A DNA stretch of 52,859 bases, taken from the NCBI RefSeq assembly GCF_029255125.1, contig NZ_JAPUVR010000082.1, positions 1 through 52,859 of the forward strand, in the 5' to 3' direction. The stretch comes from Accumulibacter sp. GTDB taxonomy: Bacteria > Pseudomonadota > Gammaproteobacteria > Burkholderiales > Rhodocyclaceae. Position 1 is the first letter of the stretch. Every line of letters starts with the position of its first letter. The position numbers and the translations under genes were made by a program. The notes under the pieces were generated by a model. It saw only the letters and a list, made by a program, of their open reading frames with translations, was not told the origin of the DNA and searched no databases. Positions 32,543 to 52,859 of the stretch are shown in pieces.

Positions 32543-32616
32543 CCGATGATCGGGTCTCTGCCGGCGGCGGATCATTCATCGGCACGGCATTGACCGGTGG
32601 ATAACGCGCAGACGGT

Positions 32617-34461
32617 ATGGAATCGACAATACAGGATTGGCTCAGTCAGCTATGCGGCAAGGTGACCGGCGTGCGCAGCGCGCTGATCCTGCTCGCTGCG
32701 CGCCCCGGACAATCGCTGCCGGCGGCGGTCTGGCCGGCGAACAGCCGGCCACCGACCGAGGTCTACACGGCGGCACGCGATACCGTGCTGGGCGAACTCG
32801 CAGTGCACTGCGTCAGTCCCTCGACAACGGCGCAGTATCACATCTTCTCGCTCCCCCTGCGCCTCGCGAACTGGGCAGGAGGCGCCTTCGCGATTGCCGT
32901 CGACCCCGCCGCGGCAGCGTCCGACGATATCGTCCTGGGCACCATCAGGCCGGCCGTTGCCCAGCTCCATCCCCTTCTGGCCACGCTGCAGCCGGCCAAT
33001 CCCGGTAGTTCCGAGGCATTGCGACTGACCGCCGCGCTGCTTGCGCATGACGATCTCGCATTGGCGTGTACGGCCTTCGCCAACGAGCTCGCCAACATCT
33101 TTCGCTGCCACCGGGCGAGCATCGGTCTGCTGCAAGGCGGGCACGTGACGGTTGCCGCGATCTCGCACGGGAGCGGACGAATCACCCCGGGGCAGTCGTT
33201 TGCCGAGGTCGAGGCGGCGATGGAGGAGGCGATCGACCAGGGAGCGACGGTGCAATATCCGCTGGGCAAGGACGCCCGAGCGCTCGTCGTGCTCGCCCAC
33301 ACAATTCTCGCCAAAGGTGCGCAGGAGTCGATTCTGACTGCCCCGCTGGTCGTCGAGCAGCAGATCATCGGTGCGATCACCCTCGAAAGTCCGGGCGATG
33401 CTGCGTTCAACGAAGACGAGAAGATCTTGCTCGAACATCTGGTTGGCTTGCTGGCACCGCTCCTCAGTCTGAAGCGACGCGCCAGCGAAACGGCCTGGCA
33501 GCGCAGCCGCAGCGAGCTGGCCCACTACTGGGCGCAGTTGCGCGCGCCCGGACTCAACCGTTGCAAGCTGGTGAGCGCGACATTCGCCGCGGTCGTTCTC
33601 GTTCTCGCGGCGGTACCGGTACCGTATCGCGTGACCGCGCCGGCCCGAGTCGAAGGCGAAGTGCAGCGCGTTCTCGCGGCGCCGAGCGACGGCTTCCTGC
33701 AGCAGGTTCATGCCCGACCAGGCGACGAAGTGAAGCAGAACCAGATTCTGATCGAGCTTGCCCAGCACGATCTGCTGCTCGAACAGCGCAAATGGCAGAG
33801 CGAGCTCGCCCAGCACGAAAACGCGTACGGCGCGGCAATGTCGAAAGGCGACCGTACGCAGCTTGCGGTCAGCATGGCGCGGATTCAGGAAGCGCAGGCT
33901 CAGCTTGGCCTGGTCGAACAACAACTGGCGCGCAGCCGCCTGACCGCCCCCTTCGACGGGATCGTCAGCGAAGGCGATCTGGCTCAGTCGCTCGGCTCGC
34001 CGGTGAAGAAGGGCCAGATCCTGATGACCGTTGCCCCGCGTGGTCGTTACCGGATCGTCGTCGAAGTCGACGAGATCGACATCCGGCACGTGCAGGACGG
34101 TCAGTCGGGAAGCCTGACGCCGACCGCCAGACCAGGCGACAGCCAGACATTCGTCGTCAGCCGGATCACGCCGGTGGCAACGGTGGTCGACACGCGCAAC
34201 GTTTTCGAAGTCGAAGGCGCTCTGCATGGTGGCGAGCCAGGCCTCGCCGCCAGCGCATTCGAAGCGCCGGCAAAAGCACCGACGAGCACGCCTCTGCCAG
34301 CCCCTGGCAGCGCACCGGCAGCGGCGGCGAGCAGCGACCGCCTGCGACCGGGAATGCGCGGAGTCGCCAAGATTTCCACCGGCTACCGGCCGCTCGGCTG
34401 GATATTTTTTCACCGCCTGGCAAACTGGGCCAGGCTCAATCTCTGGCGCTGGGGATTCTGA
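32617..34461 (+). CDS. GAF-domain HlyD-like membrane adaptor
   Basis: A 614-residue protein with an unusual order: an N-terminal region (1-130), a GAF-like domain (about 140-285, FRCHRASIGLLQGGHVTVAAI, split FRCHRASIGLL and QGGHVTVAAI, then LTAPLVVEQQIIGAITLES), a single membrane helix (about 318-334) and a HlyD/biotinyl-lipoyl adaptor with coiled coil (about 345-545; LAAPSDGFLQQVHARPGDEV, SRLTAPFDGIVSEGDL). The GAF part would lie in the cytoplasm and the adaptor in the periplasm, so a ligand inside could influence export outside. A Pro/Ala-rich insert (about 550-575) precedes the last strand. The stop lies one base before the next ATG. It is the first gene of the putative export operon. Confidence 0.85.
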   Translation: MESTIQDWLSQLCGKVTGVRSALILLAARPGQSLPAAVWPANSRPPTEVYTAARDTVLGELAVHCVSPSTTAQYHIFSLPLRLANWAGGAFAIAVDPAAAASDDIVLGTIRPAVAQLHPLLATLQPANPGSSEALRLTAALLAHDDLALACTAFANELANIFRCHRASIGLLQGGHVTVAAISHGSGRITPGQSFAEVEAAMEEAIDQGATVQYPLGKDARALVVLAHTILAKGAQESILTAPLVVEQQIIGAITLESPGDAAFNEDEKILLEHLVGLLAPLLSLKRRASETAWQRSRSELAHYWAQLRAPGLNRCKLVSATFAAVVLVLAAVPVPYRVTAPARVEGEVQRVLAAPSDGFLQQVHARPGDEVKQNQILIELAQHDLLLEQRKWQSELAQHENAYGAAMSKGDRTQLAVSMARIQEAQAQLGLVEQQLARSRLTAPFDGIVSEGDLAQSLGSPVKKGQILMTVAPRGRYRIVVEVDEIDIRHVQDGQSGSLTPTARPGDSQTFVVSRITPVATVVDTRNVFEVEGALHGGEPGLAASAFEAPAKAPTSTPLPAPGSAPAAAASSDRLRPGMRGVAKISTGYRPLGWIFFHRLANWARLNLWRWGF

Positions 34462-34462
34462 G

Positions 34463-36604
34463 ATGAGCGGCGCGCTGGTTCACCCGCACTGGTACCGCAT
34501 CGCCGAACTGCACCCCACCCTACGTGGGCACGTGGTGACTCGCCGACATGTCGTTCGTGGCGAGGTCTGGTACGTGCTCAGCGACCCCGCCGAAGACCGG
34601 CACTTTCGCCTCAACCCGGCGGCCTACCGCTTCGTCGGGCTGTGCGACGGCCGACGCAGCGTCGAGGAAGTGTGGCACTCGCTCAATGACGCGCTTGGTG
34701 AAGCGGCCCCCACCCAGGCTGAGGTGGTGAACATCATCGCCCGCCTGTCGCACGGCAACCTGTTGCGTAGCGAGGTGCTGCCTGATGTCGATCTGATGTT
34801 CGAGCAGCGGACCATCGCGCGCGAGCAGCAGCGCTGGTCGCAACTCAACCCCCTGTTCTTTCGTGTCGGTCTGCTCGATCCAAGCGCCTGGCTGCTGCCC
34901 TTCGACCCCTGGCTGAAACGCCTCTTCTCGCGCACCGCGCTGTTGCTCTGGTGCGCGCTGCTCGTCGTGGCAGCGACCGCGGCAGCGGTGAATTGGTCCG
35001 AGCTGGTGAAGCAGATGGCCGACCGGATGCACAGCCCGGCTTCTCTCCTGCTCACCTGGCTCGCCTACCCGCTGATCAAGACCTTGCACGAACTCGGGCA
35101 CGCGCTGGCGATTCGCCGCTGGGGCGGTAGCGTCCGGAAAATCGGCGTCACCCTGATCTTCTTCATGCCCGTCCCCTGGGTCGACGCCGCTGCCTCGGCG
35201 GCGTTCCCCCTGCGTCGGCAGCGGCTCATCGTCAGCGCAGCCGGGATGATGGTCGAAGCCTTGCTCGGCGCACTCGCCTTGGCCGTCTGGCTGACCGCCG
35301 AGGCAGGCGGCGTGCGCGAGGCGGCGCTCGCGGTGGTGCTGGTCGCCGGCGTGTCGCTGCTGTTCTTCAACGGCAACCCGCTGATGCGCTACGACGGCTA
35401 CTTCATCCTCACCGACCTGCTCGATCTCCCCAACCTGGCAGCGCGGAGCAACGCCTACTGGACTTTTCTGATCCGGCGGCACCTGTTCCGGATCGACGCC
35501 GACGAACCGGCCACCGCCCCCGGCGAGCGCCGCTGGCTCGTCTGCTACAGCCCTGCCTCGCTCATCTATCGGGTCATCGTCGCGCTCAGTGTCGTCGTCT
35601 GGCTGAGCAGCTACTCTGCGCCGCTCGCCGGCGTCGCGGCGCTTGGGCTGATCTGGGGATTCTTTGCCAAACCTGGCATCGCCCTCTGGCGCGCGCTCTG
35701 GCAGGAAGGCGACGACCCCCGGCAGGCGCGGCGTGCGCGGCGCATCGCCTACGCCAGCGCGACACTGCTGTCGGTCGCCCTCTTCGCCTGCCCCTTCCCG
35801 CTGCGCGTCGTCACCGAGGGCATCATCTGGTTGCCGGAAGATGCGCGCGTTCGCCCGGAAACCGACGGCTTCATCGTCCGCACGCTGGTCGCCGACGGCA
35901 GCAGCGTCAGCCGCGGACAGGTTCTGTTCGAGCTCGCCGACGCCGAACTCCTGGTCGAACGCGAGCGCCTGAGCTCGCGCCTCGCCCAGCTTCAGGCCGA
36001 ACAGTACGCCGCCTTCCCCCGCCAGGCCGAACGCGCCCAAAATCTGGCCGAAGAGATCGAGAGCGTCCGTGCCGCGCTCGCACTGAACGAAACCCGCGTG
36101 CAGAATCTGCAGGTGCGCGCCGGCAGCAGCGGTCGCCTGGTCGTTCCGCGCGAAGCCGACCTTGCCGGACGCTTTGCTGCGCGCGGCACCGACATCGCCT
36201 ACATTCTTGGCGAGACGACGCCACGCGTGCGCGCCGTGCTGGCGCAACAGGACGTTTCGCTGATCAGCGAGCGATTGCGCGGCGCCGAGGTCTGGCAAAG
36301 CGAAAGCGCGACGACCGCGCGCGCGACGCCAGGCCGCACTACACCAGCGGCAACCAGCGCGCTGCCCAGCGCCGCCCTCGGCGATCGCGCCGGTGGGCGC
36401 ATCGTCACCGATCCGCTGGACCGCAAGGGCGTCGCCGCGCTCGAACCGGTCTTTGTCGTCGACCTCGAGCTGCCCTGGCAGTTGCTCGAGCGCGTCGGCG
36501 CGCGCGCCGAGGTCCGCTTCGACCTCGGTTGGGAGCCGCTCGCCGGGCAAGCCTGGCGCCGGCTGCGACAGACCTTCCTGAGCCATCTGAGCCAGGTGGG
36601 CTGA
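34463..36604 (+). CDS. PqqD-M50 peptidase-lipoyl adaptor protein
   Basis: A 713-residue polytopic protein. Residues about 25-105 look like a PqqD-type peptide-binding domain (WYVLSDPAEDRHFRLNP). The membrane core is a site-2-protease (M50) domain with HELGH (H209, E210, H213) and NPLMRYDGYF (305-314) as the second metal motif. The C-terminal third (about 450-690) is a HlyD-like lipoyl/coiled-coil section (RPETDGFIVRTLVADGSSVS, LLVERERLSSRLAQLQAE). Such PqqD-M50-HlyD proteins occur beside exported peptides and proteins and are thought to process or export them. The metal site is complete, so it could be an active intramembrane protease. It sits between the GAF-HlyD and SecA-like genes with 1- and 4-base gaps. 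Confidence 0.87.
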   Translation: MSGALVHPHWYRIAELHPTLRGHVVTRRHVVRGEVWYVLSDPAEDRHFRLNPAAYRFVGLCDGRRSVEEVWHSLNDALGEAAPTQAEVVNIIARLSHGNLLRSEVLPDVDLMFEQRTIAREQQRWSQLNPLFFRVGLLDPSAWLLPFDPWLKRLFSRTALLLWCALLVVAATAAAVNWSELVKQMADRMHSPASLLLTWLAYPLIKTLHELGHALAIRRWGGSVRKIGVTLIFFMPVPWVDAAASAAFPLRRQRLIVSAAGMMVEALLGALALAVWLTAEAGGVREAALAVVLVAGVSLLFFNGNPLMRYDGYFILTDLLDLPNLAARSNAYWTFLIRRHLFRIDADEPATAPGERRWLVCYSPASLIYRVIVALSVVVWLSSYSAPLAGVAALGLIWGFFAKPGIALWRALWQEGDDPRQARRARRIAYASATLLSVALFACPFPLRVVTEGIIWLPEDARVRPETDGFIVRTLVADGSSVSRGQVLFELADAELLVERERLSSRLAQLQAEQYAAFPRQAERAQNLAEEIESVRAALALNETRVQNLQVRAGSSGRLVVPREADLAGRFAARGTDIAYILGETTPRVRAVLAQQDVSLISERLRGAEVWQSESATTARATPGRTTPAATSALPSAALGDRAGGRIVTDPLDRKGVAALEPVFVVDLELPWQLLERVGARAEVRFDLGWEPLAGQAWRRLRQTFLSHLSQVG

Positions 36605-36608
36605 AGCG

Positions 36609-38594
36609 ATGCACGCCGCCACAAGCACCAGCCGGCCGACGCCAGGGCTTTTCTGGGGCGCCTACCCGGAGCGTTCGCGGCCGCGCACACGAGGTTTCGA
36701 GCGCCTGATCGAACGCGCCATCGTTCGCCTGCAGCCGCCCGCCGTGCTGCGTATGCACACGTACCGTTGCTGCCTGGCGCGCGTCGCCGCCTATCAGGCA
36801 GTGGCTGACACCGCGGCCGGACAGGAGGCGCGCCTCGCCGAGCTGAAGGCGCAGCTCGCGCGCGGCGGCCTGTGCGGCGAAGCGCTGGCGCAGGCGCTGG
36901 CGCTGGTCGCCGCGCACTGCCGGCCGACGCTCGGCATGGCGCCTTTCGACCATCAGTTGATCGCCGCACGCGCGCTGCTCGACGGCCTGTTGGTCGAAAT
37001 GGCCACCGGCGAAGGCAAGACGCTGGCCGTCGCGATCGCCGCCGCGGTCGCCGCGCTGGCCGGAATTCCAGTCCACGTGATCACCGCCAACGATTACCTG
37101 GTCGAACGCGACGGGGAGCGCCTGGCGCCGCTGTATGCAGCCCTCGGCCTGCGCGTCGGCTGCGTCGTCAGCCGCCTCGACGGCACGCAGCGGCGCGCGG
37201 CCTACGCTTGCGACATCACCTACTGCACCGCCAAGGAGCTCGGTTTCGATTATCTGCGCGACCGTGCCGGCGCCCGCCGCCAGCGTGGCGACCTGCGCTG
37301 GCGTGCCGATCGCCTGGCCGGCGGCGCCGCGAGCGAGCCGCTGCTGCGCGGCCTGTGCATGGCCATCGTCGACGAAGCTGACAGCGTTCTGATCGACGAA
37401 GCGCGCGTTCCTCTGATCCTCGCCCGCTCGGTCGACAGCGCGCGCGAACGCGCCGACCATGCGCTGGCGCTGGAACTGGCAAGCCAACTCAAAGCGGACG
37501 ACGATTTCACCCTCGATGCGGCGTCACGCCGAGTCCGCATCCTGCCCCTGGGCGAGGCGCGGCTCGCCGGGCTCGTCGCCACGCTGCCCGCTTCCTGGCA
37601 CAACCGCCGCTTCCGCGAAGAATGGATAGGACAAGCGCTGAGCGCACTGCACTGCTTCCACCGCGACCGCGACTACATCGTGCGCGATCACCGCGTCGAG
37701 ATCGTCGACCCGACCACGGGCCGCGTCGCCAGCGGCCGCACCTGGTCGCGCGGGCTGCACCAGATGATCGAGCTCAAGGAGAACTGTGCGCCAACGCCAG
37801 CGCACGTCACTGCCGCCCAGATCACCTTTCAGCGCCTTTTCCGGCGCTACCACAGGCTCGCCGGCGTCAGCGGAACGCTGGCCGAGTCGGCCAGCGAGCT
37901 GGCCGAAATCTACGGCCTGCACGTCCTGCGTGTGCCGCTGCGGCAAGCCTCGCAACGCCGGCTCCTGCCAACGCGTGTCATGGCCGATCGCGCGGCCCTA
38001 TGGGCAGCGGTCAGCGAGCGCGCCGCCGACCTGCGTGCGGCCGGACGGCCGGTGCTGATCGGAACCGACTCGGTCGCCGATTCCGAAGCACTCGCGCGCA
38101 CGCTGGCCAGCGCCGGGATCGATTGTCGAATCCTCAACGCGCGCCAGGATCGCGCCGAGGCAGAGACCGTCGCGCTCGCCGGTTTGCGCGCGCAGGTGAC
38201 TGTCACTACCAACATGGCCGGTCGCGGAACCGACATCCCGCTCGGTACCGGCGTTGCAGCGCTCGGCGGCTTGCACGTCATCTCCTGCCAGCACAATGCT
38301 TCGCGCCGAATCGACCGCCAATTGCTCGGCCGCTGCGCGCGCCAGGGACAGCCGGGCAGCGCCGAGGCGCTGCTTGGCCTCGATTCCGATCTCCTGGCGA
38401 AGCGCTGCTCGCCGTACTGGCTGGCCCGCCTGCAACGTCATCTCGCTATCCGGCCGACGCAAGCGCTGGCCCGCTTCCTCGCCTACCTCGTCCAGCGCGC
38501 CGAGGAGGCGCGCGAGCGCGCCGCACGGCGGCGCATGCTGCTCGACGACGAGCGCACGGAAAGTCAGCTCGCGTTGGGCGGCGAAGGAGACTGA
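36609..38594 (+). CDS. Reduced SecA-like ATPase
   Basis: A 661-residue SecA-family motor. Nearly every SecA ATPase motif is present: MATGEGKT (131-138), VITANDYLVERDGE (158-170), CDITYCTAKELGFDYLRD, AIVDEADSVLIDEARVPLI (252-270), VDPTTGRVASGRTWSRGLHQ (366-385), GVSGTLAESASEL (419-431), VTTNMAGRGTDIPLG (532-546) and RRIDRQLLGRCARQGQPGS (566-584). After that only about 77 residues remain, so the helical wing/scaffold with the two-helix finger and the zinc-binding C-terminus are missing. The late motif reads RQGQ instead of RQGD. The stretch between VDEADS and VDPTTGR is about 112 residues, seemingly shorter than in housekeeping SecA, so the preprotein cross-linking domain is reduced. It is not the general SecA; a dedicated motor for a neighbouring substrate is the best inference. 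Confidence 0.88.
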   Translation: MHAATSTSRPTPGLFWGAYPERSRPRTRGFERLIERAIVRLQPPAVLRMHTYRCCLARVAAYQAVADTAAGQEARLAELKAQLARGGLCGEALAQALALVAAHCRPTLGMAPFDHQLIAARALLDGLLVEMATGEGKTLAVAIAAAVAALAGIPVHVITANDYLVERDGERLAPLYAALGLRVGCVVSRLDGTQRRAAYACDITYCTAKELGFDYLRDRAGARRQRGDLRWRADRLAGGAASEPLLRGLCMAIVDEADSVLIDEARVPLILARSVDSARERADHALALELASQLKADDDFTLDAASRRVRILPLGEARLAGLVATLPASWHNRRFREEWIGQALSALHCFHRDRDYIVRDHRVEIVDPTTGRVASGRTWSRGLHQMIELKENCAPTPAHVTAAQITFQRLFRRYHRLAGVSGTLAESASELAEIYGLHVLRVPLRQASQRRLLPTRVMADRAALWAAVSERAADLRAAGRPVLIGTDSVADSEALARTLASAGIDCRILNARQDRAEAETVALAGLRAQVTVTTNMAGRGTDIPLGTGVAALGGLHVISCQHNASRRIDRQLLGRCARQGQPGSAEALLGLDSDLLAKRCSPYWLARLQRHLAIRPTQALARFLAYLVQRAEEARERAARRRMLLDDERTESQLALGGEGD

Positions 38595-38854
38595 GTCGGC
38601 ACAGTCGCCGCAATCGATCTGATCGGATGCCGCAGGCGAAGCCACCTGCCTGCAGCACGCGCGTTGCCCCCTCCCGGCCTTGACGATCTTGCATCACCCG
38701 AGGCGAGTGACGACATTGAGCAAGGCGAAGGTTAAAGATCGCGGCCAGGTTGCCGTTCCCTATCGAGTGAGACTAGTTCACACCGCGCGCCGATGCGCGG
38801 TCGGCGGGCGTCACCATATGGAGCTGGCGCACGATCAGAAATCCAGGAAAACCC

Positions 38855-39955
38855 ATGAATCTCAGAAGTGGTCACCCGACGGACCGCTGGACGTTGCTGG
38901 CGCTCACTCTTTTTGCGGCGTTGCCGGTTCACGCCGCGCCGGCACTTGGCTGCCTGATCGAGCCCTATCAGGTAGCCGAAGTGGGCAGCCAGGTCATCGG
39001 CGTCCTCGACAAGGTGCTCGTCGATCGCGGATCGGCGATCCAGAAGGGCCAGGTTCTCGCCACGCTCAAAGCCGACGTCGAGAAAGCGGCTGCCGGCATC
39101 GCGCGCAGCCGTGCGCAGGCGCAAGCGGACCTGCAGGCAGCGCAGGCCAGCCGCGATTACAACCGACAGCGCCTGGCGCGCGCCAATGACCTCGTTGCCA
39201 GAAACTTCATCTCGCCACAGGCACGCGAACAAACGCAGAACGAGACCGAAGTCGCCGAGCAGCGTCTGGCGCAGGCGCGCGAACAGAAGCGGATCTGGGA
39301 TTACGAATACGAGATGGCGCGTGCGCAGTTGTCGCTGCGCAAGCTGCTCAGCCCGCTCTCGGGAGTCGTCATCGAACGCTATCTGTCGCCGGGCGAACGC
39401 GTCGAAGATCGCCCGGTACTGAAAGTGGCGACGATGGACCCGCTGCGGGTCGAGGTTTTCATGCCGGCGGCCAGTTACCGCCAGGTCAAACCCGGGATGA
39501 GCGCCACCGTCTACCCGGACCTGCCCGACGCTGGCCAGCACAGCGCCACGGTCACCCTGGTCGATCAGTTCATCGATCCAGCCAGCAACACCTTTCGCGT
39601 TCGCCTCGAACTACCTAACCCGAACAACGAATTACCGGCAGGCTTGCGGTGCAAGGTGGCGATCGGCGACCAACCGATCAGCAACCCGATCAGCTCGGGC
39701 CGGGACTCCATGCAGAGCGTGCCCGCCCCGGCCGCAGGCACACCGCCAGGACCACCAGCGGCGACTCGCCCACCAACCTTCGGCACGCCTCCGCCAAGCC
39801 CGCGTGCACCCGCCCCGGCCGCTCCGCCGACCGGCGCCTTGCCACGGCAGCTTGCCCCAGCGGTAAGCGTCGACCGCTCGGCCATGCTGCCCGCGGCGCC
39901 ACCGGCACTCGACGCCGCGGCATGGTTCCTGCAAAACGCGCGGGCGGTACGATGA
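38855..39955 (+). CDS. RND/HlyD-type periplasmic adaptor
   Basis: A 366-residue membrane-fusion protein. An N-terminal signal peptide (about 1-28, LLALTLFAALPVHAA) leads to a biotinyl-lipoyl half (IGVLDKVLVDRGSAIQKGQVL), given as IGVLDKVLVDRGS and AIQKGQVL. A coiled-coil hairpin (about 75-155) and a beta-barrel domain follow (LLSPLSGVVIERYLSPGERV, PLRVEVFMPAASY, GLRCKVAIG). The last 90 residues are a Pro/Ala-rich disordered tail. AGGA precedes the ATG. There is no inner-membrane RND pump or outer-membrane channel gene beside it, so it probably works with the neighbouring HlyD-like proteins. The 260-base gap before it shows no gene or convincing promoter. Confidence 0.88.
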   Translation: MNLRSGHPTDRWTLLALTLFAALPVHAAPALGCLIEPYQVAEVGSQVIGVLDKVLVDRGSAIQKGQVLATLKADVEKAAAGIARSRAQAQADLQAAQASRDYNRQRLARANDLVARNFISPQAREQTQNETEVAEQRLAQAREQKRIWDYEYEMARAQLSLRKLLSPLSGVVIERYLSPGERVEDRPVLKVATMDPLRVEVFMPAASYRQVKPGMSATVYPDLPDAGQHSATVTLVDQFIDPASNTFRVRLELPNPNNELPAGLRCKVAIGDQPISNPISSGRDSMQSVPAPAAGTPPGPPAATRPPTFGTPPPSPRAPAPAAPPTGALPRQLAPAVSVDRSAMLPAAPPALDAAAWFLQNARAVR

Positions 39956-40557
39956 ACCCCGCTCGCATCGCCCGCCTGGCATGACCGTCGACCGCGCACG
40001 CGCACGTTCATGAAAACCAGCCAACGGCCTCTCGCGCCGCCCCACCTTCTGCTCGAAGCACTCGCTGGCCACGAGCCGTGTTGGCACGATCGCGCGAGCG
40101 GCGGCTCGCCGCTCACCGTGGCGATGACGCCGACGACCTCGGCCTCCGACAAGCACGACATCAGCAACAGCCGGTACCTCGACGCATCTGCTGCCTCGAC
40201 CGATGACGAGCTGGAGAACACCGGCCACGTGCGACCGAACGCCCGCACACGAGCAGCGGGTAGGCTCAGCGCAACTTACGCGCCGGGCAAGCCGCGCCTT
40301 ATCAACCGAGCCGGCAAAGCCGGCAGCGCGCGCGACCGCCCTGCGATAAGCCGCGTCCACCTGCGTGTACAGCACCGGATCGACGATCTAGCCCTCAACA
40401 CCAGCAATTTCTTGACGCGGGTCGACTGCAGGTGCCGCCGGCTGACCGCGGGCGAGCAGAGACAGAACTGGCGAACGGCAAACCCGGCGGCTGCCCGCCG
40501 ACCACGCTGCGCCGATCACCGCTCGCGCGCCCGAACAGCCGACCGGGAGCAGCCCGC
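39956..40557. other. 602-base gap before the giant gene
   Basis: No convincing gene. A 183-codon forward frame (40010-40561) has ordinary codon use for its first 60-80 codons but no ribosome binding site, no recognisable domain, turns Arg-rich and runs over the ATG of the giant gene. Reverse-strand frames are equally unconvincing. The region may be a decayed gene or the leader of the giant gene. A TTGACG at 40412-40417 has no matching -10 box. Confidence 0.4.
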
Positions 40558-46500: not shown

Positions 46501-49500
46501 ACGTTCGAGAACAGTGCCAGCGATGTCGCCCCTGGAACGACGCAGAACGGTGTTCTCGGCGGCGACGCGAACTACGCCGCCGATGGTACACGCGGCCGCG
46601 TACTCGGCCTGGACGGCGCCGGCGACTACGTCAGCATCGCCGACACCAGCAGCTTCCGGGCGCTGACCCAAGGGACGATCGCGTCCTGGGTGAAGTTCAC
46701 CGACACAGGGTTCAGGGTGATCTTCTCGGTCACCGACGGAGCAAGCAATCAGAACTATTTGAATCTATTCGTCAACAACGGCAAGCTCGGCGCGCAGACG
46801 GTAGACGGGAATAGCTGGATCTTCGAAACGGTTTCAACCGCCACGATCAATGACGGCAACTGGCACCATGTCGCCTTCACGGTGAACGGTTCGGGCAACC
46901 AGTTGTACATCGACGGCACCGCGGCGGCCCGCACGTTCAACCAAGGCAACGCGGCAACGTCGTCGTTCTACGCGTCGCTCAATAGCGTAACCAGCGTGAC
47001 GATTGGCGCCACCTACACTGTGCCAGGTTCCTACCTCAGCGGCTTCTCCGGCCAAATCGACGATCTGCGCGTCTACAGCCGCGCCCTGACGGCGGGCGAG
47101 TTGTCGCTGCTGGCGGCCGATCAGAGCCTGACCGACAGCGACACGGTAGCGATCACCGTGAGTGCCGCCAACGACGCGCCGACCTTCGCCATTGGCACCG
47201 GCATCGTGACGACCAACGTCACGCCGGCTGCCGATCACGGCAACGCAGTGATCGCGCAGAGCGACGGCAAGCTTCTGGTCGCCGGCGAAGGTAACGGTGA
47301 CTTCGTGCTCGTGCGCTACAAGACCGACGGCACGCTCGATACGGCCTTCGGTGGTGGCGACGGGATGGTGTCCACCGCGGTCGGCAGCGGAGGCGGCTTT
47401 GCCTCCAGCCTTGCGCTTCAGGCGGACGGAAAGATCATCGTCTCAGGTTATGCCAGCAACGGCAGCAATGACGACTTTGCCCTTGTCCGCTACAACCCGG
47501 ATGGCTCGCGGGACACCGACTTCGGTACCGGCGGCAAGGTCACCACCGCGATCGGAGCCGGCGACGACCGGGCGCTAGGCGTCGCCGTGCAAAGCAACGG
47601 CCGTATCGTACTCGCGGGGTACAGCTACAACGGCAGCAACAACGATTTTGCCGTCGTGCGCTATAACAGCGATGGCACGCTGGACACCACATTCAGCGGC
47701 GACGGCAAGCTGACCACGGCAATCAGCACCAGCAACGATGACGCCTACGCAGTACTGGTGCAAAGCGACGGCAAGATCGTCGTTGTCGGCAGCAGCCTGA
47801 TCGGCGGCACGAACTGGGACTTTGCCGCCGCGCGCTACAACAGCGACGGAACACTGGACACCAGCTTCAGCGGCGACGGCCTGGCCAATTTCGCCGTCGG
47901 CACCGGCCATGATTATGCCTGCGGCGTGGCGCTGCAGCCGGATGGCAAGTTGGTGCTGGCCGGCTACGGAGTCAACGGCGCGACCAGTGACTTTGCCGTC
48001 GTGCGCCTGAATAGCAGCGGCACGCTCGACACCAGCTTCAGTGGCGACGGCAAGCTCTTCACCGCGATCGGGGCGAGCGAGGACCTGGCGACCAGCGTGA
48101 CGCTGCAGACGGATGACAAGATCGTGCTCGCCGGTACCTATGCCAATGGCGCAAACACCGATCTGGCCGTGGCCCGGTATAACGTTGACGGCTCGCTCGA
48201 CACCAGCTTCGACAGCGACGGGATCAAAACTCTGGCACTGCCCGCAGGCAGCAACCAAGTCACTGGCGTCGCCGTCTCGAACGGGCGGATCGTCGCCGTC
48301 GGCACCACGCAGTCCAAACTCGCCGCCGTGTTCCTGGGGACAAACGGCACGCCCGAGGCCACCATCGGCGCCGTCAACACGCTGGACGGCGCGCCAACGT
48401 ACACCGAAGGCGGTGCCCCGGCGGTGCTGGATGCCAATGTCCAGATCTTCGATGCCGAGTTGTCCGCGAACAACAACTTCAGCGGGGCCACGCTGACGCT
48501 GACGAGGAACGGCGGCGCCAATGCGCAGGACGTGTTCAGCGCCAGCGGTACGCTCGCCACGCTGACCCAGGGCGGCAACCTGACCGTCGGCGGTACGACC
48601 ATCGGCACCGTCACCACCAACAGCGGCGGAACGCTGTTGCTCAGCTTCAACGGCAGCGCCACCAACGCGCTGGTCAACTCGGCAATGCAGCAGATCGCCT
48701 ACAGCAATACGAGCGACGCGCCAGCAGCCAGTGTACAGATCAACTGGACGGTCAACGACGGCAACAGCGGCACCCAAGGCAGTGGCGGCGCGCTGCAGAA
48801 CACCGGCAGTACCACGGTCACCATCACTGCGGTCAACGACGCGCCGGTGCTCGCCGATACCGCGCTGTCGATCACCGTCGCCGAGGATGCCGTCGTGCCG
48901 AGCGGCGCGGTGGGCTCCTTGCTCAGCGCTTTCACCGGCGGCATCTCCGACGTCGACAGCGGCGCGCTCAAGGGCATCGCCATCACCGCCAGCAACGAGA
49001 CCAATGGCACCTGGTACTACAGCACCAACAGCGGCACCAACTGGAGCACTGTCGGCGTGGTGAGCAACACGTCGGCGCTGCTGCTCGCTGACGACGGCAA
49101 CACACGGCTATATTTCACACCGAACGCCGACTACAACGGCACCGCCAGTAGCGCGCTCACCCTGCGCGCCTGGGACCGCAGCAGCGGCAGCGCCGGCAGC
49201 AAGGTCGATACCAGTTCCAACGGCGGCAGCACCGCCTACTCCAGCGCCACCGACGTCGTCGACGTGACGGTGACCGCGATCAACGACGCGCCAACCTTCG
49301 GCGTCGGAGCCGGCGGCCTCACCATCCCGGCGGGATCGGTGGGCGGCGAGGCATACAGCGTCATCGTGCAAGCCGACGGCAAGATCATCACGGCCGGCTA
49401 CCGCAACGACGCCGGCCAACTGGACATTCAACTGATCCGCTGCAACGCCGACGGCAGCGTGGACACCGGCTTCGGCAACAACGGCAGGGTGATCACCGCG

Positions 49501-52500
49501 ATCGGGGCGGGCGCTGACTTCGCTTGGGAAGTGGCCTTGCAGGCGGACGGCAAGATCCTGGTCGCTGGCGAAAGCTACAACGGCAGCAACAGCGACTTTG
49601 CGCTGGTGCGTTACAACACCGATGGCAGCCTCGATGCCAGCTTCGGCAGCGGTGGCAAGGTGACCACCGCGATCGGCTCAGGCAACGAACAAGCCATGGG
49701 ACTCGCGGTGCAGGCCGACGGCAGGATCGTGCTCGCCGGCTGGTCCGGAAGTGACTTCGCACTGGCGCGCTACAACACCGACGGCAGTCTGGACGCGAGT
49801 TTCGGCACCGGCGGCAAGGTCGTCACTTCGTACGGAGCCAACAGCGGCGCGTATTCCGTGGCGGTCCAGCCCGACGGCAAGATCGTGCTCGCCGGCAGCA
49901 TCTGGAACGGCAGCAATTACGACGTGGCGGTGTTGCGCTACAACACCAACGGCACGCTGGACGCCGGATTCGGCAGCGCTGGCAAGGTCACCACGGCCGT
50001 CGGCACCGGGCATGACTTCAGCTACGATCTGGCACTGCAAGCCGATGGCCGGATCGTGCTGACCGGATCGACCAGCAACGGCGGCAGTGGCAGCGTCCTG
50101 GTGCTGCGCTACAACGTCGACGGCAGCCTGGACACCAGCTTCAACGGCACCGGCAAGGTGAGCACTGCCGTGGGTTCCTACAGCGCCTACGGCGAAAGCG
50201 TGGCCATCCAGCCCGACGGCAAGATCGTCGTCGTTGGCGCCGCCAGAAACGCCAGCAACACCTACGACGATTCGCTGGTGCTGCGCTACAACACCGACGG
50301 CAGCCTGGACACGAGCTTCAATGGCAGCGGCAAGCTCACTTCGGAGCTCAGCAGCGCCGGCGACCACTTTTATGACCTCGCCCTGCAGCCCGACGGCACT
50401 ATCGTGGCCGCAGGGTACGCGACGATCAATGGCACCCAGGAATTCCTGCTGGCGCGCTACACTGCCAGCGACACCCTCGACCCGACCTTCGGCACGATCC
50501 TCGGCCCGCTCGACGGCGCGCCGAGCTATACGGAAGGCGGCAGCGCCGTCGTGCTCGACAGCGATGTTCGCGTCTACGATGCCGAACTGACCGCCAGCAA
50601 CTTCAGCGGTGCAACGCTGACGCTGGCGAGGAATGGCGGCGCCAACACACAGGACGTGTTCAGCGCCAGCGGCACGCTCGCCGCACTGACCCAGGGCGGC
50701 AACCTGACCGTCGGCGGAACGACCATCGGCACCGTCACCACCAACAGCGCCGGCACGCTGCTGCTCAGCTTCAACGCCAGCGCCACCAACGCGCTGCTCG
50801 ATTCGGCGCTGCAGCAGATCGCCTACAGCAATTCAAGCGACACCCCGCCCGCCTCGGTCCAGATCGACTGGACCTTCAACGACGGCAACGCCGGCGCCCA
50901 GGGTACCGGCGGCGCCCTCGCCGATGTCGGCCACACCACGGTGACGATCACAGCGACGAACGACGCCCCGACCGGCAGCGTCACCATCGACGACACCACG
51001 CCAGCCCAAGGCCAGACGCTCACCGCCAGCAACACGCTCGCCGACGCCGACGGCCTCGGTGCGATCAGCTACCAGTGGCAACGTGCCGGCATCGACATCG
51101 GCGGCGCTACCGGCAGCACCTACACCACGACGCAGGCCGATGTCGGCCAGATCCTGCGCGTCGTCGCCAGCTACACCGACGGCCAGGGCACCCTCGAATC
51201 GGTCCCCTCCGCTGGGACGAGCGCAGTTACGAATGTGAACGACGCGCCGACCGGCAGCGTCACCATCGACGACACCACGCCAGCCCAAGGCCAGACGCTC
51301 ACTGCCAGCAACACCCTCGCTGACGCCGACGGCCTCGGTACGATCGGCTACCAATGGCAGCGTGGCGGCGTCGACATCGTCGGCGCCACCGGCACCACCT
51401 ACACCACGACGCAGGCCGATGTCGGACAGATCCTGCGCGTCGTCGCCATCTACACCGACGGCCAGGGTACCCTCGAATCGGTCCCCTCCGCTGGGACGAG
51501 CGCAGTTACGAATGTGAACGACGCGCCCAGCGGCAGCGTCACCATCGACGACACCACGCCAGCCCAAGGCCAGACGCTCACCGCCAGCAACACGCTCGCC
51601 GACGCCGACGGCCTCGGTACGATCGGCTACCAATGGCAGCGTGGCGGCGTCGACATCGTCGGCGCCACCGGCAGCACCTACACCACGACGCAGGCCGATG
51701 TCGGCCAAGTCCTGCGCGTCGTCGCCAGCTATACCGACGGCCAGGGAACGCTCGAATCGGTGCCGTCCGCCGGAACGAGCGCCGTTACCAACGTCAACGA
51801 CGCGCCCACCGGCAGCGTCACGATCGACGACACGACACCAAGCCAAGGCCAGACGCTCACCGCCAGCAATACGCTGGCGGACGCCGACGGCCTTGGTGCG
51901 ATCAGCTACCAGTGGCAACGTGCCGGCGTCGACATCGTCGGCGCTACCGCCAGCACCTACACCACGACGCAGGCCGATGTCGGCCAGATCCTGCGCGTCG
52001 TCGCCAGCTACACCGACGGCCAGGGTACGCTCGAATCGGTGCCGTCCGCTGGAATCAGCGCCGTCACCAACGTCAACGACGCGCCGACCGGCAGCGTCAC
52101 CATTGGCGATACGACGCCAGCCCAAGGTCAGACGCTCACCGCCAGCAACACCCTCGCTGACGCCGACGGCCTCGGCGCAATCAGCTACCAATGGCAGCGC
52201 GCCGGCGTCGACATCGTCGGCGCTACCGGCAGCACCTACACCACGACGCAGGCCGATGTCGGCCAGATCCTGCGCGTCGTCGCCAGTTATACCGACGGCC
52301 AGGGAACGCTCGAATCGGTCCCGTCCGCTGGGACAAGCGCCGTCACCAACGTCAACGACGCGCCAAGCGGCAGCGTCACCATCGACGACACCACGCCAGC
52401 CCAAGGCCAGACGCTCACCGCCAGCAACACGCTCGCCGATGCCGACGGCCTCGGCGCGATCAGCTACCAATGGCAGCGTGGCGGCGTCGACATCGGCGGC

Positions 52501-52859
52501 GCTACCGGCAGCACCTACACCACGACGCAGGCCGATGTCGGCCAGATCCTGCGCCTCGTCGCCAGCTACACCGACGGCCAGGGTACGCTCGAATCGGTCC
52601 CGTCCGTTGGAACAAGCGCCGTCACCAACGTCAACGACGCGCCGACCGGCAGCGTCACCATCGACGACACCACGCCAGCCCAAGGCCAGACGCTCACCGC
52701 CAGCAACACGCTGGCCGACGCCGACGGCCTCGGCGCGATCGGCTACCAATGGCAGCGTGGCGGCGTCGACATCGGCGGCGCTACCGGCAGCACCTACACC
52801 ACGACGCAGGCCGATGTCGGCCAGATCCTGCGCGTCGTCGCCAGCTACACCGACGGCCA
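40558..52859 (+). CDS. Giant repeat-rich surface protein with LEPR-XLL motif and DUF4347 (3' end outside window)
   Basis: A frame of at least 4100 codons, still open at the right edge. The start is ATG with GGGAG upstream. Residues 11-24 (PIVEELEPRLLYSA) match the LEPR-XLL N-terminal motif of very large exported proteins; there is no classical signal peptide. DUF4347 follows (about 65-215), with H126 in VSHG and C169 in LLYGC, a His/Cys pair as in caspase-like folds. Then come, in order, seven 53-residue propeller-like repeats, four blocks of delta-60 (DUF5122) repeats, four cadherin-like modules, one LamG domain and a 93-residue tandem array. It is most likely a secreted adhesin or matrix protein. 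Reading frame continuity was checked at many points by hand, not at every codon. Confidence 0.9.
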   Translation, partial: MNARQPFAKRPIVEELEPRLLYSADLSPLHTLATDGGNEVRWLETTAPPNATPTERAQTQTEKRHEVVIIDGGIANWSALLADLPTADDDRKLEIAVLDPNDDGLQQISEILAQFDDLAAVHLVSHGASGEVILGNRHLDRQALQENGELLQRWGQSLSADGDLLLYGCQVGEGSAGQAFITEWARLSGADVAASDDATGAAAAGGDWTLEASVGRIEAQALTAADWQGTLALSAQGAETRVNTSTTSTQETAEYNGGSVAMDANGNFVVVFHDYNDDYIYFQRFNAAGVAQGAQTRVNPAVYQYRDQPCVAMDPSGNFVVVWASANQDAASSLGIYAQRFSASGVAQGGEFRVNTLTAGDQYSPAVATDGSGNFVITWTDAGTATVKAQRYNASGVAQGGELVVDGYAPNAYGTSVAMNASGAFVVGWSDYSSGNSFEIYCQRFDASGAAQGGKTRVNTSTTGYQEGAAVGMADDGSFVVAFEDSDSTSGDIYFQRYNASGVAQGGNVRANTYTTSNQFYAAVAMNASGSFIVTWQSFGQDAGSSQGIYMQAYNADGSASGSETRVNTTTAGGQYWPSVAYEGGNAVVVWSGMGPGDATDGGIFFQRLAEPANTAPTFNGAAFGGGDGIATTALGSAADDAYSLAVQSDGKVVVAGTSFNGTNYDYAVVRYNADGTLDTTFSGDGKLTTVVASGDDVAQAVTLQADGKILVAGYSNNDFALVRYNTDGTLDTTFSGDGKLTTAIGASGDYATGVAVQADGKIVVAGYYLSGNYKFAVVRYNADGTLDTSFSGDGIATLSFGTSNEYGYSLALQADGKILVAGEANMSGNVDVALARLNTDGTLDASFSGDGMVTTAIGTGIDSGRGVTVQSDGKIVVAGSSSNGSNNDIAVVRYNTDGTLDTSFSGDGKLTTAVGSGADEGRGVVVQSDGKIVVTGYSVNSNNDFALVRYNSDGTLDTSFSGDGKLTTAVGAGTDWAYKAAVLSDGRILVAGESNNGSNMDFALVSYNSDGSLSTAPITTLNATPSFTEGGSAVVLDADVQVTDAELSAGNFSGATLTLARTGGANAQDVFGASGTLGTLTQGGNLVVGGTTIGTVTTNSAGLLVLTFNTNATNALVNSAMQQIAFSNSSDAPPASAQINWTFSDGNTGAQGVGGALSATGSTTVTITAVNDPPVNTVPGAQTTGEDTNLVFSTANGNALSIADPDGGAGTFEVTLSVTNGTLTLGGTAGLSFVSGDGSADTTMTVRGTLSDLNAALQGLTYAPTANYSGGATLTLQTSDLALSDTDPVAITVAAGNDAPTFTSDGNGTVTTAIGAGTDAAEEVVVQADGKYVVVGRSSNGANDDFAIARYNSNGTLDTTFSGDGKTTVAIGSGLDQAFAVALQSDGKIVVAGNSYNGTDTDFAVLRLNTDGSLDTTFSGDGKVTTDLALGNDDANSVLIQSDGKIVVTGSADNGVSYDFAAVRYNTNGTLDTSFSIDGKVTTFFGVNHDESWDSLLQSDGKIVLVGSTNLGASDDFAILRYNTDGTLDTTFSGDGKQTASFGGNLDVAYSVVQQADGKLVLAGKYFDGSSYAFAISRLTTTGSLDTTFSGDGLQLVDVSASADAAYSVALQSDGAIVLAGPSGNGSTDDFAVVRLTSAGALDTTFSGDGMLTTSLGGLDQAASVVVQSDGAIVVAGVGAGDFALVRYGSTGTLDATFNGTNTLDGAPSHTEGGSPVVLDGNVQVFDAELSGAGNYSGATLTLARHGGANAQDVFSATGVLSSIAAASGNVVVSGTTIGTYTNSAGTLVFTFNASATQTRVNSAMQAIAYSNASDAPPASVQIDWTFNDGNSGAQGSGGALSATGSTTVSITAVNDPPANAVPGAQSTNEDTVKVFSSANGNAISITDPDDSGATFEVTLSVTNGTLTLAGTSGLAFTVGDGGADTTMSFSGTVANINTALDGLTFSPTTNFTGGATLTLATADSVLASLNIDANLHARYTFENSASDVAPGTTQNGVLGGDANYAADGTRGRVLGLDGAGDYVSIADTSSFRALTQGTIASWVKFTDTGFRVIFSVTDGASNQNYLNLFVNNGKLGAQTVDGNSWIFETVSTATINDGNWHHVAFTVNGSGNQLYIDGTAAARTFNQGNAATSSFYASLNSVTSVTIGATYTVPGSYLSGFSGQIDDLRVYSRALTAGELSLLAADQSLTDSDTVAITVSAANDAPTFAIGTGIVTTNVTPAADHGNAVIAQSDGKLLVAGEGNGDFVLVRYKTDGTLDTAFGGGDGMVSTAVGSGGGFASSLALQADGKIIVSGYASNGSNDDFALVRYNPDGSRDTDFGTGGKVTTAIGAGDDRALGVAVQSNGRIVLAGYSYNGSNNDFAVVRYNSDGTLDTTFSGDGKLTTAISTSNDDAYAVLVQSDGKIVVVGSSLIGGTNWDFAAARYNSDGTLDTSFSGDGLANFAVGTGHDYACGVALQPDGKLVLAGYGVNGATSDFAVVRLNSSGTLDTSFSGDGKLFTAIGASEDLATSVTLQTDDKIVLAGTYANGANTDLAVARYNVDGSLDTSFDSDGIKTLALPAGSNQVTGVAVSNGRIVAVGTTQSKLAAVFLGTNGTPEATIGAVNTLDGAPTYTEGGAPAVLDANVQIFDAELSANNNFSGATLTLTRNGGANAQDVFSASGTLATLTQGGNLTVGGTTIGTVTTNSGGTLLLSFNGSATNALVNSAMQQIAYSNTSDAPAASVQINWTVNDGNSGTQGSGGALQNTGSTTVTITAVNDAPVLADTALSITVAEDAVVPSGAVGSLLSAFTGGISDVDSGALKGIAITASNETNGTWYYSTNSGTNWSTVGVVSNTSALLLADDGNTRLYFTPNADYNGTASSALTLRAWDRSSGSAGSKVDTSSNGGSTAYSSATDVVDVTVTAINDAPTFGVGAGGLTIPAGSVGGEAYSVIVQADGKIITAGYRNDAGQLDIQLIRCNADGSVDTGFGNNGRVITAIGAGADFAWEVALQADGKILVAGESYNGSNSDFALVRYNTDGSLDASFGSGGKVTTAIGSGNEQAMGLAVQADGRIVLAGWSGSDFALARYNTDGSLDASFGTGGKVVTSYGANSGAYSVAVQPDGKIVLAGSIWNGSNYDVAVLRYNTNGTLDAGFGSAGKVTTAVGTGHDFSYDLALQADGRIVLTGSTSNGGSGSVLVLRYNVDGSLDTSFNGTGKVSTAVGSYSAYGESVAIQPDGKIVVVGAARNASNTYDDSLVLRYNTDGSLDTSFNGSGKLTSELSSAGDHFYDLALQPDGTIVAAGYATINGTQEFLLARYTASDTLDPTFGTILGPLDGAPSYTEGGSAVVLDSDVRVYDAELTASNFSGATLTLARNGGANTQDVFSASGTLAALTQGGNLTVGGTTIGTVTTNSAGTLLLSFNASATNALLDSALQQIAYSNSSDTPPASVQIDWTFNDGNAGAQGTGGALADVGHTTVTITATNDAPTGSVTIDDTTPAQGQTLTASNTLADADGLGAISYQWQRAGIDIGGATGSTYTTTQADVGQILRVVASYTDGQGTLESVPSAGTSAVTNVNDAPTGSVTIDDTTPAQGQTLTASNTLADADGLGTIGYQWQRGGVDIVGATGTTYTTTQADVGQILRVVAIYTDGQGTLESVPSAGTSAVTNVNDAPSGSVTIDDTTPAQGQTLTASNTLADADGLGTIGYQWQRGGVDIVGATGSTYTTTQADVGQVLRVVASYTDGQGTLESVPSAGTSAVTNVNDAPTGSVTIDDTTPSQGQTLTASNTLADADGLGAISYQWQRAGVDIVGATASTYTTTQADVGQILRVVASYTDGQGTLESVPSAGISAVTNVNDAPTGSVTIGDTTPAQGQTLTASNTLADADGLGAISYQWQRAGVDIVGATGSTYTTTQADVGQILRVVASYTDGQGTLESVPSAGTSAVTNVNDAPSGSVTIDDTTPAQGQTLTASNTLADADGLGAISYQWQRGGVDIGGATGSTYTTTQADVGQILRLVASYTDGQGTLESVPSVGTSAVTNVNDAPTGSVTIDDTTPAQGQTLTASNTLADADGLGAIGYQWQRGGVDIGGATGSTYTTTQADVGQILRVVASYTDG
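41266..42393 (+). repeat. Seven imperfect ~53-residue repeats in the giant protein
   Basis: Each unit has the pattern RVN, a variable segment, VAM.., GNFVVVW, then IYFQRFNASGVAQGG, at roughly 160-base spacing. They are likely blades of a beta propeller placed directly after DUF4347. Confidence 0.8.
42420..43610 (+). repeat. Delta-60 repeat block 1
   Basis: About seven repeats of 53-57 residues with the pattern QSDGKIVVAG, NDFALVRYN, DGTLDTSFSGDGKLTT, as in delta-60/DUF5122 proteins. Unit landmarks GACGGCAAG or its variant fall at 42505, 42676, 42835 and 43003. Confidence 0.85.
43612..44445 (+). repeat. Cadherin-like module 1
   Basis: Begins FTEGGSAVVLDADVQV and continues through LARTGGANAQDVF, INWTFSDGN and TVTITAVNDPP to a second domain ending near LALSDTDPVAI. 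The same module recurs near 45650, 48370 and 50505. It is a cadherin/VCBS-like adhesin fold. Confidence 0.75.
44455..45650 (+). repeat. Delta-60 repeat block 2
   Basis: A second run of about seven delta-60 units (QSDGKIVVTG, AVRYNTNGTLDTSFS). Confidence 0.85.
45650..46470 (+). repeat. Cadherin-like module 2
   Basis: Starts HTEGGSPVVLDGNVQVFDAE and follows the same order as module 1, including AVNDPPANAVPGAQ. Confidence 0.75.
46470..47165 (+). other. LamG / concanavalin-like domain in the giant protein
   Basis: LHARYTFENSASDVAPG, VLGLDGAGDYVSIADTSSF, GTIASWVKFTDTG, NWHHVAFTVNGSGNQLYIDG and GFSGQIDDLRVYSRALT are the classical LamG pattern. Such domains bind glycans or other ligands. It is present in only one of the four cadherin-like sections. 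Confidence 0.85.
47185..48370 (+). repeat. Delta-60 repeat block 3
   Basis: A third run of about seven delta-60 units following the LamG domain. Confidence 0.85.
48370..49290 (+). repeat. Cadherin-like module 3
   Basis: YTEGGAPAVLDANVQIFDAE opens the module. It carries an extra domain (LSITVAEDAVVPSG to YNGTASSALTLRAWDRSSG) before the next delta-60 block. Confidence 0.75.
49300..50500 (+). repeat. Delta-60 repeat block 4
   Basis: A fourth run of about seven delta-60 units (QADGKIIT, LVRYNTDGSLDASFGSGG). Confidence 0.85.
50505..50961 (+). repeat. Cadherin-like module 4 (short)
   Basis: YTEGGSAVVLDSDVRVYDAE followed by the same first domain only, running straight into the 279-base tandem array. 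Confidence 0.75.
50962..52859 (+). repeat. Tandem array of 279-base (93-residue) Ig-like repeats
   Basis: Units start at 50962, 51241, 51520, 51799, 52078, 52357 and 52636, exactly 279 bases apart, and the last is cut by the window edge. Each encodes DAPTGSVTIDDTTPAQGQTL, ADADGLGAISYQWQ, DIGGATGSTYTTTQADVGQI and YTDGQGTLESVPS, an Ig-like adhesin domain. Copies are nearly identical at the DNA level, showing recent duplication or gene conversion. The array probably continues outside the window. Confidence 0.97.

Follow-up and report, generated by a model that had tools for sequence, protein, structure and literature searches.

A predicted export locus for giant LEPR-XLL proteins centered on a PqqD-M50-HlyD fusion protein

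Gene content and layout of the locus

We analyzed a locus in an Accumulibacter sp. draft genome (3.83 Mb) in which genes for a GAF-HlyD protein, a PqqD-M50-HlyD fusion protein, a SecA-like ATPase and a periplasmic adaptor precede the gene for a giant protein with an LEPR-XLL leader motif. The window, meaning the whole stretch of DNA analyzed, is an entire contig (C82) of 52,859 nucleotides. A sequence-only reading of this DNA had described three genes separated by gaps of 1 to 4 bases and followed by an adaptor and an LEPR-XLL giant. Coordinates and domain calls confirm that description, with the following features (aa, amino acids; ORF, open reading frame; RRE, RiPP recognition element; RiPP, ribosomally synthesized and posttranslationally modified peptide):

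32617..34461, + strand: GAF-HlyD protein, 614 aa; GAF domain, then a HlyD/barrel-sandwich part (Pfam HlyD_D23/HlyD_3 and GAF)
34463..36604, + strand: PqqD-M50-HlyD protein, 713 aa from the ATG at 34463; PqqD/RRE-like N terminus, multihelix M50 part and C-terminal membrane fusion protein domain with a helical hairpin
34571..34756, + strand: PqqD-like domain, putative leader binder (Pfam PqqD, 1.6e-4, residues 116-177 of ORF P0002)
35087..35101, + strand: M50 zinc site HExxH (HELGH), invariant in alignment A2
35369..35395, + strand: second M50 motif, N-x-N-P-L-x3-D (NxNPxxxxD in 80/80 M50 ORFs)
36609..38594, + strand: SecA-like ATPase, 661 aa; comprises the two nucleotide-binding domains, the preprotein cross-linking domain and a long terminal helix
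38855..39955, + strand: second periplasmic adaptor, 366 aa; hydrophobic, signal-peptide-like N terminus (RND_mfp, 123.7 bits; cut-off 94.9)
39179..39214, + strand: adaptor RLT motif (TolC docking), RANDLVARNFIS, from a motif scan of the adaptor alignment
40558..52859, + strand: giant LEPR-XLL protein from the ATG at 40558, about 4100 aa up to the contig end; tandem repeats of delta-60 and other types
40591..40644, + strand: LEPR-XLL leader motif, VEELEPRLLYSAD (NF012209, above cut-off)
40756..41238, + strand: DUF4347 directly after the leader (PF14252, 1.1e-50)

A single base separates the GAF-HlyD stop codon from the M50 start codon at 34463 (the ORF listing also gives a longer M50 frame starting at 34226), and 4 bases separate the M50 and SecA-like genes. 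A consensus scan of positions 32300 to 40700 returned no promoter-like sites and seven terminator-like sites, versus 4.8 expected. The M50 and PqqD Pfam matches both fall just under their cut-offs (21.7 versus 27.2 bits and 22.4 versus 23.4 bits, respectively). The giant protein starts with MNARQPFAKRPIVEELEPRLLYSAD, scores 20.6 bits against the LEPR-8K model NF012209 (cut-off, 17; 27 bits in the genome-wide search) and has 27 delta-60 stretches after DUF4347 in an NCBIfam scan. The contig end falls inside a 279-bp tandem repeat of the giant gene, which runs off the contig at 52859, and thus the C terminus is missing.

To place the window among related loci, species genomes were scanned with 22 aligned M50 proteins, and the best 80 of at least 587 relatives were retained. 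The GAF-HlyD, M50 and SecA-like genes have the same order and strand in 68 of these 80 loci, and this arrangement exceeds chance; the remaining loci either run into a contig end or have no recognized SecA-like gene (12 in all). A GAF-HlyD homologue is present in 74 of the 80 loci. Its topology is probably a cytoplasmic GAF domain, a single membrane helix and a periplasmic HlyD part.

Co-occurrence of the module with LEPR-XLL proteins

The distribution of the module was surveyed in an even sample of 323 genomes from the host class, with NF012209 as the model for LEPR proteins and the M50 protein of the window as the query. For the M50 query, the best three candidates per genome were scored, and M50 matches with E<1e-50, a cut set in this analysis, were called strong. 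NF012209 matched 28 of the 323 genomes, and the M50 query matched 78 at E<=0.001 and 31 at E<1e-50. Strong M50 proteins were found in 24 of the 28 genomes with LEPR proteins and in 7 of the 295 others (Fisher, 4.4e-26). A tally by families, made by hand with the total of 165 taken as the highest label among those listed, gave 18 of 21 versus 4 of 144 (Fisher, 1.8e-17). Two of the LEPR genomes outside the strong set, G198 and G280, have divergent M50 proteins (4.5e-43 and 1.6e-34) and a different, D-type form of the motif (LEPRLLFDGA and LEPRILLDGA). Among the seven genomes with a strong M50 protein and no NF012209 match, four (G259, G234, G228 and G081) have a motif ORF directly beside the M50 or adaptor gene, with LETRLLYSAD, VEPRLLFSAG, QERRILFSAD and LEPRLLLSGG, respectively. 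NF012209 misses these LETR, QERR, VEPR and LEPRLLLSGG variants.

A motif profile of 18 positions, built from 21 contexts, matched one ORF in each of 24 of the 80 loci and nothing in the rest of the 10,683 ORFs (E up to 1, with the first 250 residues scanned per ORF). All 24 matched ORFs are on the same strand as the operon and lie no more than 1.7 kb downstream of its last gene; several are shortened by contig ends. NF012209 matches (E<=0.01) were found in 39 of 49 further module genomes, two of which, G323 and G332, share contig places with G007 and G298 and so do not count as independent genomes. This genome-wide search covered all but seven of the 80 loci (L083, L087, L128, L135, L139, L147 and L148). 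LEPR ORFs also occur on the other side of the operon. Among 15 junctions fetched for suggested closeness, the LEPR ORF ends 0 to 1.8 kb upstream of the GAF-HlyD gene on the same strand in 11; of the remaining 4, 1 is convergent and adjacent, 2 are within 5 kb and 1 is at 8.5 kb. Over the whole locus set, an LEPR-motif ORF is adjacent to the operon (<=1.8 kb) in 36 of the 80 loci. When the nonoperon ORFs were clustered, the most frequent neighbor family (30 loci) included LEPR/DUF4347 proteins, and the third (14 loci) was another giant.

Annotated plasmids show the same association. A complete plasmid of Alisedimentitalea scapharcae carries a giant, HlyD, "peptidase M50" and SecA, and a Pseudosulfitobacter plasmid carries a giant with FEPRVLLSAD, DUF3467, an adaptor, a PqqD protein and a "translocase." On the A. 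scapharcae plasmid (L255), the giant gene is 24 kb long, and its annotated start lies 3' of VVEQLEPRLLLAAD. The annotated start is therefore downstream of the LEPR motif, and the leader is absent from the annotated protein.

The sequence-only reading had proposed a search of many genomes for co-occurrence, with a lack of conserved linkage as the outcome that would speak against it. That search was run and revealed linkage of the module with LEPR-XLL proteins that is conserved across genomes. Because the module is found both beside LEPR giants and together with them, it very probably handles and exports them, with no ABC pump of the usual kind.

The N termini of the giants do not resemble Sec signal peptides. 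The consensus of 75 distinct N termini with the S-type motif is [FLV]-E-x-L-E-P-R-[LIV]-L-[LYF]-S-A-D, a statistic that is partly circular in that the pattern used to pick the rows fixed the E, R and S/A or DG positions. With start codons chosen by rule, the net charge upstream of the motif is positive in 67 of 80 N termini, and a mean hydropathy of 1.6, which is signal-peptide-like, is reached by 3 of 80 LEPR N termini versus 40 of 55 adaptors. This hydropathy argues against a Sec signal peptide on the LEPR giants. LEPR-motif open frames reach 14,414 codons in the 49 further module genomes. Four cargo proteins with closed frames (L084, L094, L242 and L240) have immunoglobulin (Ig)- or cadherin-type domains, with DUF4347 in two and a lectin-like domain in one; Pfam and NCBIfam models found no type 1 C-terminal target domain or RTX signal in any of the four.

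The Accumulibacter genome itself has three SecA_DEAD proteins: one of the housekeeping type, the window copy and a copy in a second module on contig C122 (locus L010; GAF-HlyD, M50, SecA-like and adaptor genes). NF012209 matches two of its proteins, the window giant and one on contig C105 with an open frame of 7443 aa. The C105 giant (L006-L007; L007 positions 1-2295 and 11451-17747) carries FESLEPRILLSAD. Judged from a reading of the sequence, other genes on this contig resemble those for the PEP-CTERM regulators PrsK/PrsR and a PEP-CTERM tetratricopeptide repeat lipoprotein.

Other genes also recur beside the modules. The second most frequent neighbor family (16 of the 80 loci) is exemplified by a GGDEF-EAL protein of L094, and GGDEF/EAL or GGDEF genes were seen at L094 17744-20866, L234 3024-6149 and L242 2827-4398; these genes hint at control of giant surface proteins by cyclic di-GMP. 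In L100 (3316-7695), DUF3467, O-methyltransferase and radical SAM genes adjoin the module, and DUF3467 is annotated inside the L253 operon. Within the window, positions 26509-27975 encode an FHA protein like those of type VI secretion (PF20232); the 10 upstream ORFs scanned show no other type VI gene. In a record titled Candidatus Omnitrophota (L091, 12648-22100), an ORF that carries FEAMESRILLSAN and spans at least 3151 aa lies behind GAF-HlyD and M50 genes in a locus that has no SecA-like gene. Giant proteins may be handled by the module in Omnitrophota as well.

The PqqD-M50-HlyD protein and the SecA-like ATPase

The PqqD-M50-HlyD protein is a predicted protease. HExxH and NxNPxxxxD are each present in all 80 M50 ORFs of the fetched loci, and the active-site motifs are thus intact. 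Its AlphaFold2 model (mean pLDDT, 87.9) begins with a PqqD-like unit of three strands followed by three helices, continues through a helical membrane region and then forms a barrel-sandwich domain that bears a helical hairpin. The best Foldseek match of the HlyD part was MexA (3.2e-11), and profile comparison matched the PqqD structure 3g2b (E, 1.1e-4). The daptide protease NF041824 was the best named NCBIfam match, at 151 bits versus a cut-off of 300, so membership in that family was rejected. Daptide proteases, which belong to a RiPP system, are similar in having an HExxH membrane protease with a PqqD-like domain in front. In contrast, the M50 protein described here is fused to an adaptor domain and is paired with giant proteins rather than small peptides.

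PqqD/RRE domains bind peptide leaders. All 32 rows of the M50 tree with an S-type motif ORF (..SAD) sit in the main M50 clade, whereas the D-type motif (..DGA) was found in 5 of the 5 divergent-M50 genomes or records with a readable LEPR N terminus (G198, G280, G284, G145 and an Escherichia coli plasmid; Azospirillum brasilense is outside these five, and the G280 motif ORF is on a different contig from its M50 gene). The form of the leader thus covaries with the protease group. Of all the observations, this covariation hints most strongly at reading of the leader by the M50 protein, with the PqqD domain as the probable site of LEPR recognition and the M50 part as the probable site of cleavage.

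The SecA-like protein has a SecA_DEAD match of 4.5e-83 and aligns with residues 34-583 of Bacillus subtilis SecA. Its model (pLDDT, 90; pTM, 0.91) ends in a single 40-residue helix, and Foldseek matched it to 1tf5 (2.5e-49) and to 6itc, SecA in a SecA-SecY complex (TMq, 0.84). The absent part would presumably carry the wing of SecA and the two-helix finger that acts on SecY. The protein falls below the cut-offs for canonical SecA (TIGR00963, 476.7 versus 800 bits) and for accessory SecA2 (TIGR04397, 442.8 versus 1085 bits; TIGR04221, 387.6 versus 725 bits; TIGR03714, 370.5 versus 930 bits), and both assignments were rejected. It resembles accessory Sec in being a second SecA paralogue and differs in that a single helix follows its second nucleotide-binding domain and ends the protein. 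GEGK[TS] is present in 68 of the 69 SecA-like homologues above 400 bits; the rows of alignment A3 were chosen for GEGKT, three dropped homologues have GEGKS, and L120 has neither in the frame read. A further SecA_DEAD match lies within a 3151-aa open frame about 20 kb from the module in genome G282 (C1:2166885-2168012).

The SecA-like gene adjoins the M50 gene in 75 of the 79 loci with enough sequence and is missing beside it in L074, L091, L107 and L145. SecA proteins were counted in 74 chosen genomes (27 with LEPR proteins, 7 with M50 only, 14 with weak M50 matches and 26 background genomes), some of them drafts, with the Accumulibacter genome (G000) counted separately. A second SecA was found in 22 of the 31 strong-M50 genomes versus 1 of the 26 background genomes. 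The other nine strong-M50 genomes have a single SecA (G048, G159, G165, G170, G184, G252, G304, G081 and G259), although in G048 the M50 and adaptor genes are at two contig ends, and the assembly gap could hold a SecA-like gene. The operon of G304, G165, G184 and G170, all drafts, comprises GAF-HlyD, M50, adaptor and LEPR ORF without SecA (in G170, a GGDEF-EAL gene precedes the LEPR ORF), and in G070 and G273 an operon that lacks SecA lies beside an LEPR ORF, with SecA located elsewhere. On a FastTree M50 tree of 104 rows, two of which (L240 and L241) are long, the SecA-neighbor label needs at least nine changes, and supported branches force six changes for the SecA label or seven for the no-SecA label, with unknown rows treated as others. 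The proportions on this tree are no census, because 22 of its loci were added partly for lack of SecA. Taken together, the SecA-less operons, the single-SecA genomes and the repeated changes on the tree rule out the SecA-like protein as a universal defining partner. It is a frequent, optional power unit, and the constant core is the PqqD-M50-adaptor set with the LEPR leader.

Conduit, mechanism and alternative explanations

An RLT motif for TolC docking has been reported for HlyD, AcrA and MacA in the available text of PMC3391258. In the adaptors of the module, 36 of 55 sequences share RLT at a single alignment column, and 41 of 55 have it anywhere, versus a shuffle mean of 12 and maximum of 22. 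The GAF-HlyD proteins show no enrichment of the motif (38 of 72; shuffle mean, 31), and the M50 proteins have it less often than expected by chance (18 of 62; shuffle mean, 32).

Operons of a sister group of the module can include TolC itself. In 16 host-class genomes, the best M50 match is a divergent protein (E, 4e-25 to 1e-43); of these genomes, G054 alone has a second, very divergent SecA. Their operons consist of adaptor, HlyD and M50 genes, with an additional OEP gene in G102 and G284. On plasmids of A. brasilense and E. coli, the genes are giant, TolC, adaptor, HlyD and M50. For example, E. coli plasmid NZ_CP081785.1 (48490-68241; L251, L254) encodes a DUF4347/Ig giant with an LESRQLFDGA leader, TolC, adaptor, HlyD and M50-HlyD proteins. 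The E. coli giant is 4459 aa long by the record coordinates and starts with RFALESRQLFDGAAL, followed by DUF4347. Of 5426 complete E. coli genomes, 24 have the M50 gene, and 21 of its 25 places are on plasmids. The three HlyD-type proteins, the TolC-docking motif and the linked TolC in the divergent operons together point to a conduit.

The sequence-only reading had also proposed that the machine replaces the ATP-binding cassette (ABC) transporter of type 1 secretion, and the gene content agrees with that proposal. No ABC transporter gene lies at 32617-52859 or inside the annotated operons of L251, L252, L253 and L259; unrelated uptake ABC genes lie further off in L252 and L253. LssB-family ABC transporters above the cut-off were not enriched (9 of 28 LEPR genomes versus 6 of 26 background genomes; p=0.55). 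A type 1 ABC exporter was therefore rejected as the consistent partner, with a weak association at a looser threshold that is weighed below. The type 1 system HlyB-HlyD-TolC shares HlyD-type adaptors, the RLT docking motif and giant repeat cargo with the locus. Unlike in that system, the operons read have no ABC gene, the leader is N-terminal and the closed-frame cargo tested has no C-terminal target domain.

Parts of this machine have been recognized before. In the available text of Kamneva, Poudel and Ward 2015 (PMC4452313), a secondary SecA_DEAD locus is described in which SecA_DEAD, without all or most of SecA_SW, accompanies M50-HlyD, GAF-HlyD, a HlyD/biotin-lipoyl protein and sometimes OEP. 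SecA_DEAD was proposed there as the ATPase and M50 as the membrane pore, standing in for an ABC transporter, and the broader role of the locus was called completely unknown. The operon published for Methylobacterium extorquens AM1 is META1p2402-2399. The window has the arrangement that defines that locus, a SecA_DEAD protein without SecA_SW beside M50-HlyD and GAF-HlyD. The mechanism of the sequence-only reading is thus largely a rediscovery, and the cargo link is the new element. The published locus was defined by SecA_DEAD, and the available text names neither cargo nor leader motif; the present analysis adds an LEPR-XLL cargo, an optional SecA and a TolC-bearing sister group that includes E. 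coli plasmids. The one-line description of the NF012209 (LEPR-XLL/LEPR-8K) family, which the window giant and the 28 class genomes match, assigns no exporter. A literature search with preprints and most subscription papers outside its scope found nothing that links LEPR-XLL or DUF4347 proteins to this machine or gives an LEPR export route; giant proteins are treated in PMC10066038 and PMC11573180, to judge from the available portions of those papers.

We consider, with a probability of about 0.63, that the locus encodes a tripartite, type-1-like export and surface display machine that has no ABC transporter and is dedicated to large proteins with an LEPR-XLL leader. The basis is at the sequence level: cargo and machine travel together, the protease motifs are intact, the adaptor has a docking motif and the sister operons include TolC. 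Export and its energy source are inferred. In the proposed mechanism, the PqqD domain, on the cytoplasmic side of the M50 protein, would bind the LEPR leader, and the M50 part would hold, and probably cut, the leader at the inner membrane. The HlyD-type domains of the GAF-HlyD, M50-HlyD and adaptor proteins would form a periplasmic conduit to a TolC-family channel. In most lineages, the SecA-derived ATPase, which lacks the SecY-acting part, would feed or unfold the chain. Lineages without the SecA-like protein would use another energy source, most simply housekeeping SecA/SecYEG.

Several observations weigh against this export machine. LEPR-like ORFs (LEQRxLLS) are present in G066 and G189, and the M50 search of both genomes gave no match. 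Conversely, no LEPR ORF was found in the module genomes G312, G161 and G235 (contigs of the latter two end nearby), and 10 of the 49 further module genomes had no NF012209 match. In the Accumulibacter genome, contig C122 with the second module has no NF012209 match, contig C105 with the second LEPR giant has no M50 match, and no TolC gene was found in the window operon, with seven OEP proteins on other contigs. The 50 Foldseek PDB matches listed for the M50 model are all adaptors, with a site-2 protease fold among none of them. At E<=1e-100, LssB was found in 19 of 28 LEPR genomes versus 9 of 26 background genomes (p=0.03).

The last association would fit an alternative in which the module is a processing or anchoring station: the giant would cross by housekeeping Sec or a type 1 ABC exporter, and the PqqD-M50 protein would remove its leader or release or retain the protein. 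The 9 of 31 strong-M50 genomes with a single SecA evidently do without a dedicated SecA-type motor, and the invariant protease motifs and the likeness to a daptide membrane protease also favor this alternative. Against it, the three HlyD-type proteins, the TolC-docking motif and the TolC linked in divergent operons point to a conduit, a strongly hydrophobic stretch is absent from 77 of 80 LEPR N termini, and 9 of 28 LEPR genomes, including the single-contig genomes G049 and G090, have no LssB at E<=1e-100 among the 13 best candidates per genome. We consider this alternative unlikely.

A role for the SecA-like motor as the essential engine, everywhere pushing the giant into the M50/adaptor complex in place of an ABC transporter, is less probable still. 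The frequent adjacency to the M50 gene, the excess of second SecA proteins in strong-M50 genomes and the conserved GEGK[TS] favor this explanation, which has been published as a hypothesis (PMC4452313, available text), but the SecA-less operons of the four single-SecA drafts and the at least nine label changes on the M50 tree do not. Thus, the suggestion in the sequence-only reading that the SecA-like motor feeds the giant may hold where the gene is present, and the motor is not a fixed part of the machine. It is very improbable that the module exports something else, such as a small peptide or lipid, with LEPR proteins merely as regular neighbors: the RiPP-like M50 protein and the radical SAM, methyltransferase and DUF3467 genes near the L100 module (with look-alikes in L132 and L145) would suit such a role, but co-occurrence is genome-wide, linkage is found on either side of the operon and motif form tracks M50 group.

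An export machine of the kind preferred here could represent a distinct secretion class, a broader proposition that we regard as evenly poised. In such a class, an LEPR leader would be read by a PqqD-site-2-protease-adaptor fusion that replaces the inner membrane transporter, providing a general route for giant repeat proteins that lack signal peptides. The SAD and DGA dialects would be matched to two protease groups, the truncated SecA would be an add-on engine, and the class would extend over Proteobacteria and records titled Desulfobulbaceae, Myxococcota, Nitrospiraceae, Omnitrophota and Rokubacteria.

The cargo link gives an ABC-free machine a cargo and gives the LEPR giants, which are found in many environmental genomes, a route. 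If the M50 protein does form the inner membrane station, then a protease would be doing the job of a transporter. The link between machine and cargo makes both testable in ordinary laboratory bacteria, and lineages that lack the SecA-like gene provide a natural comparison from which to learn what drives transport.

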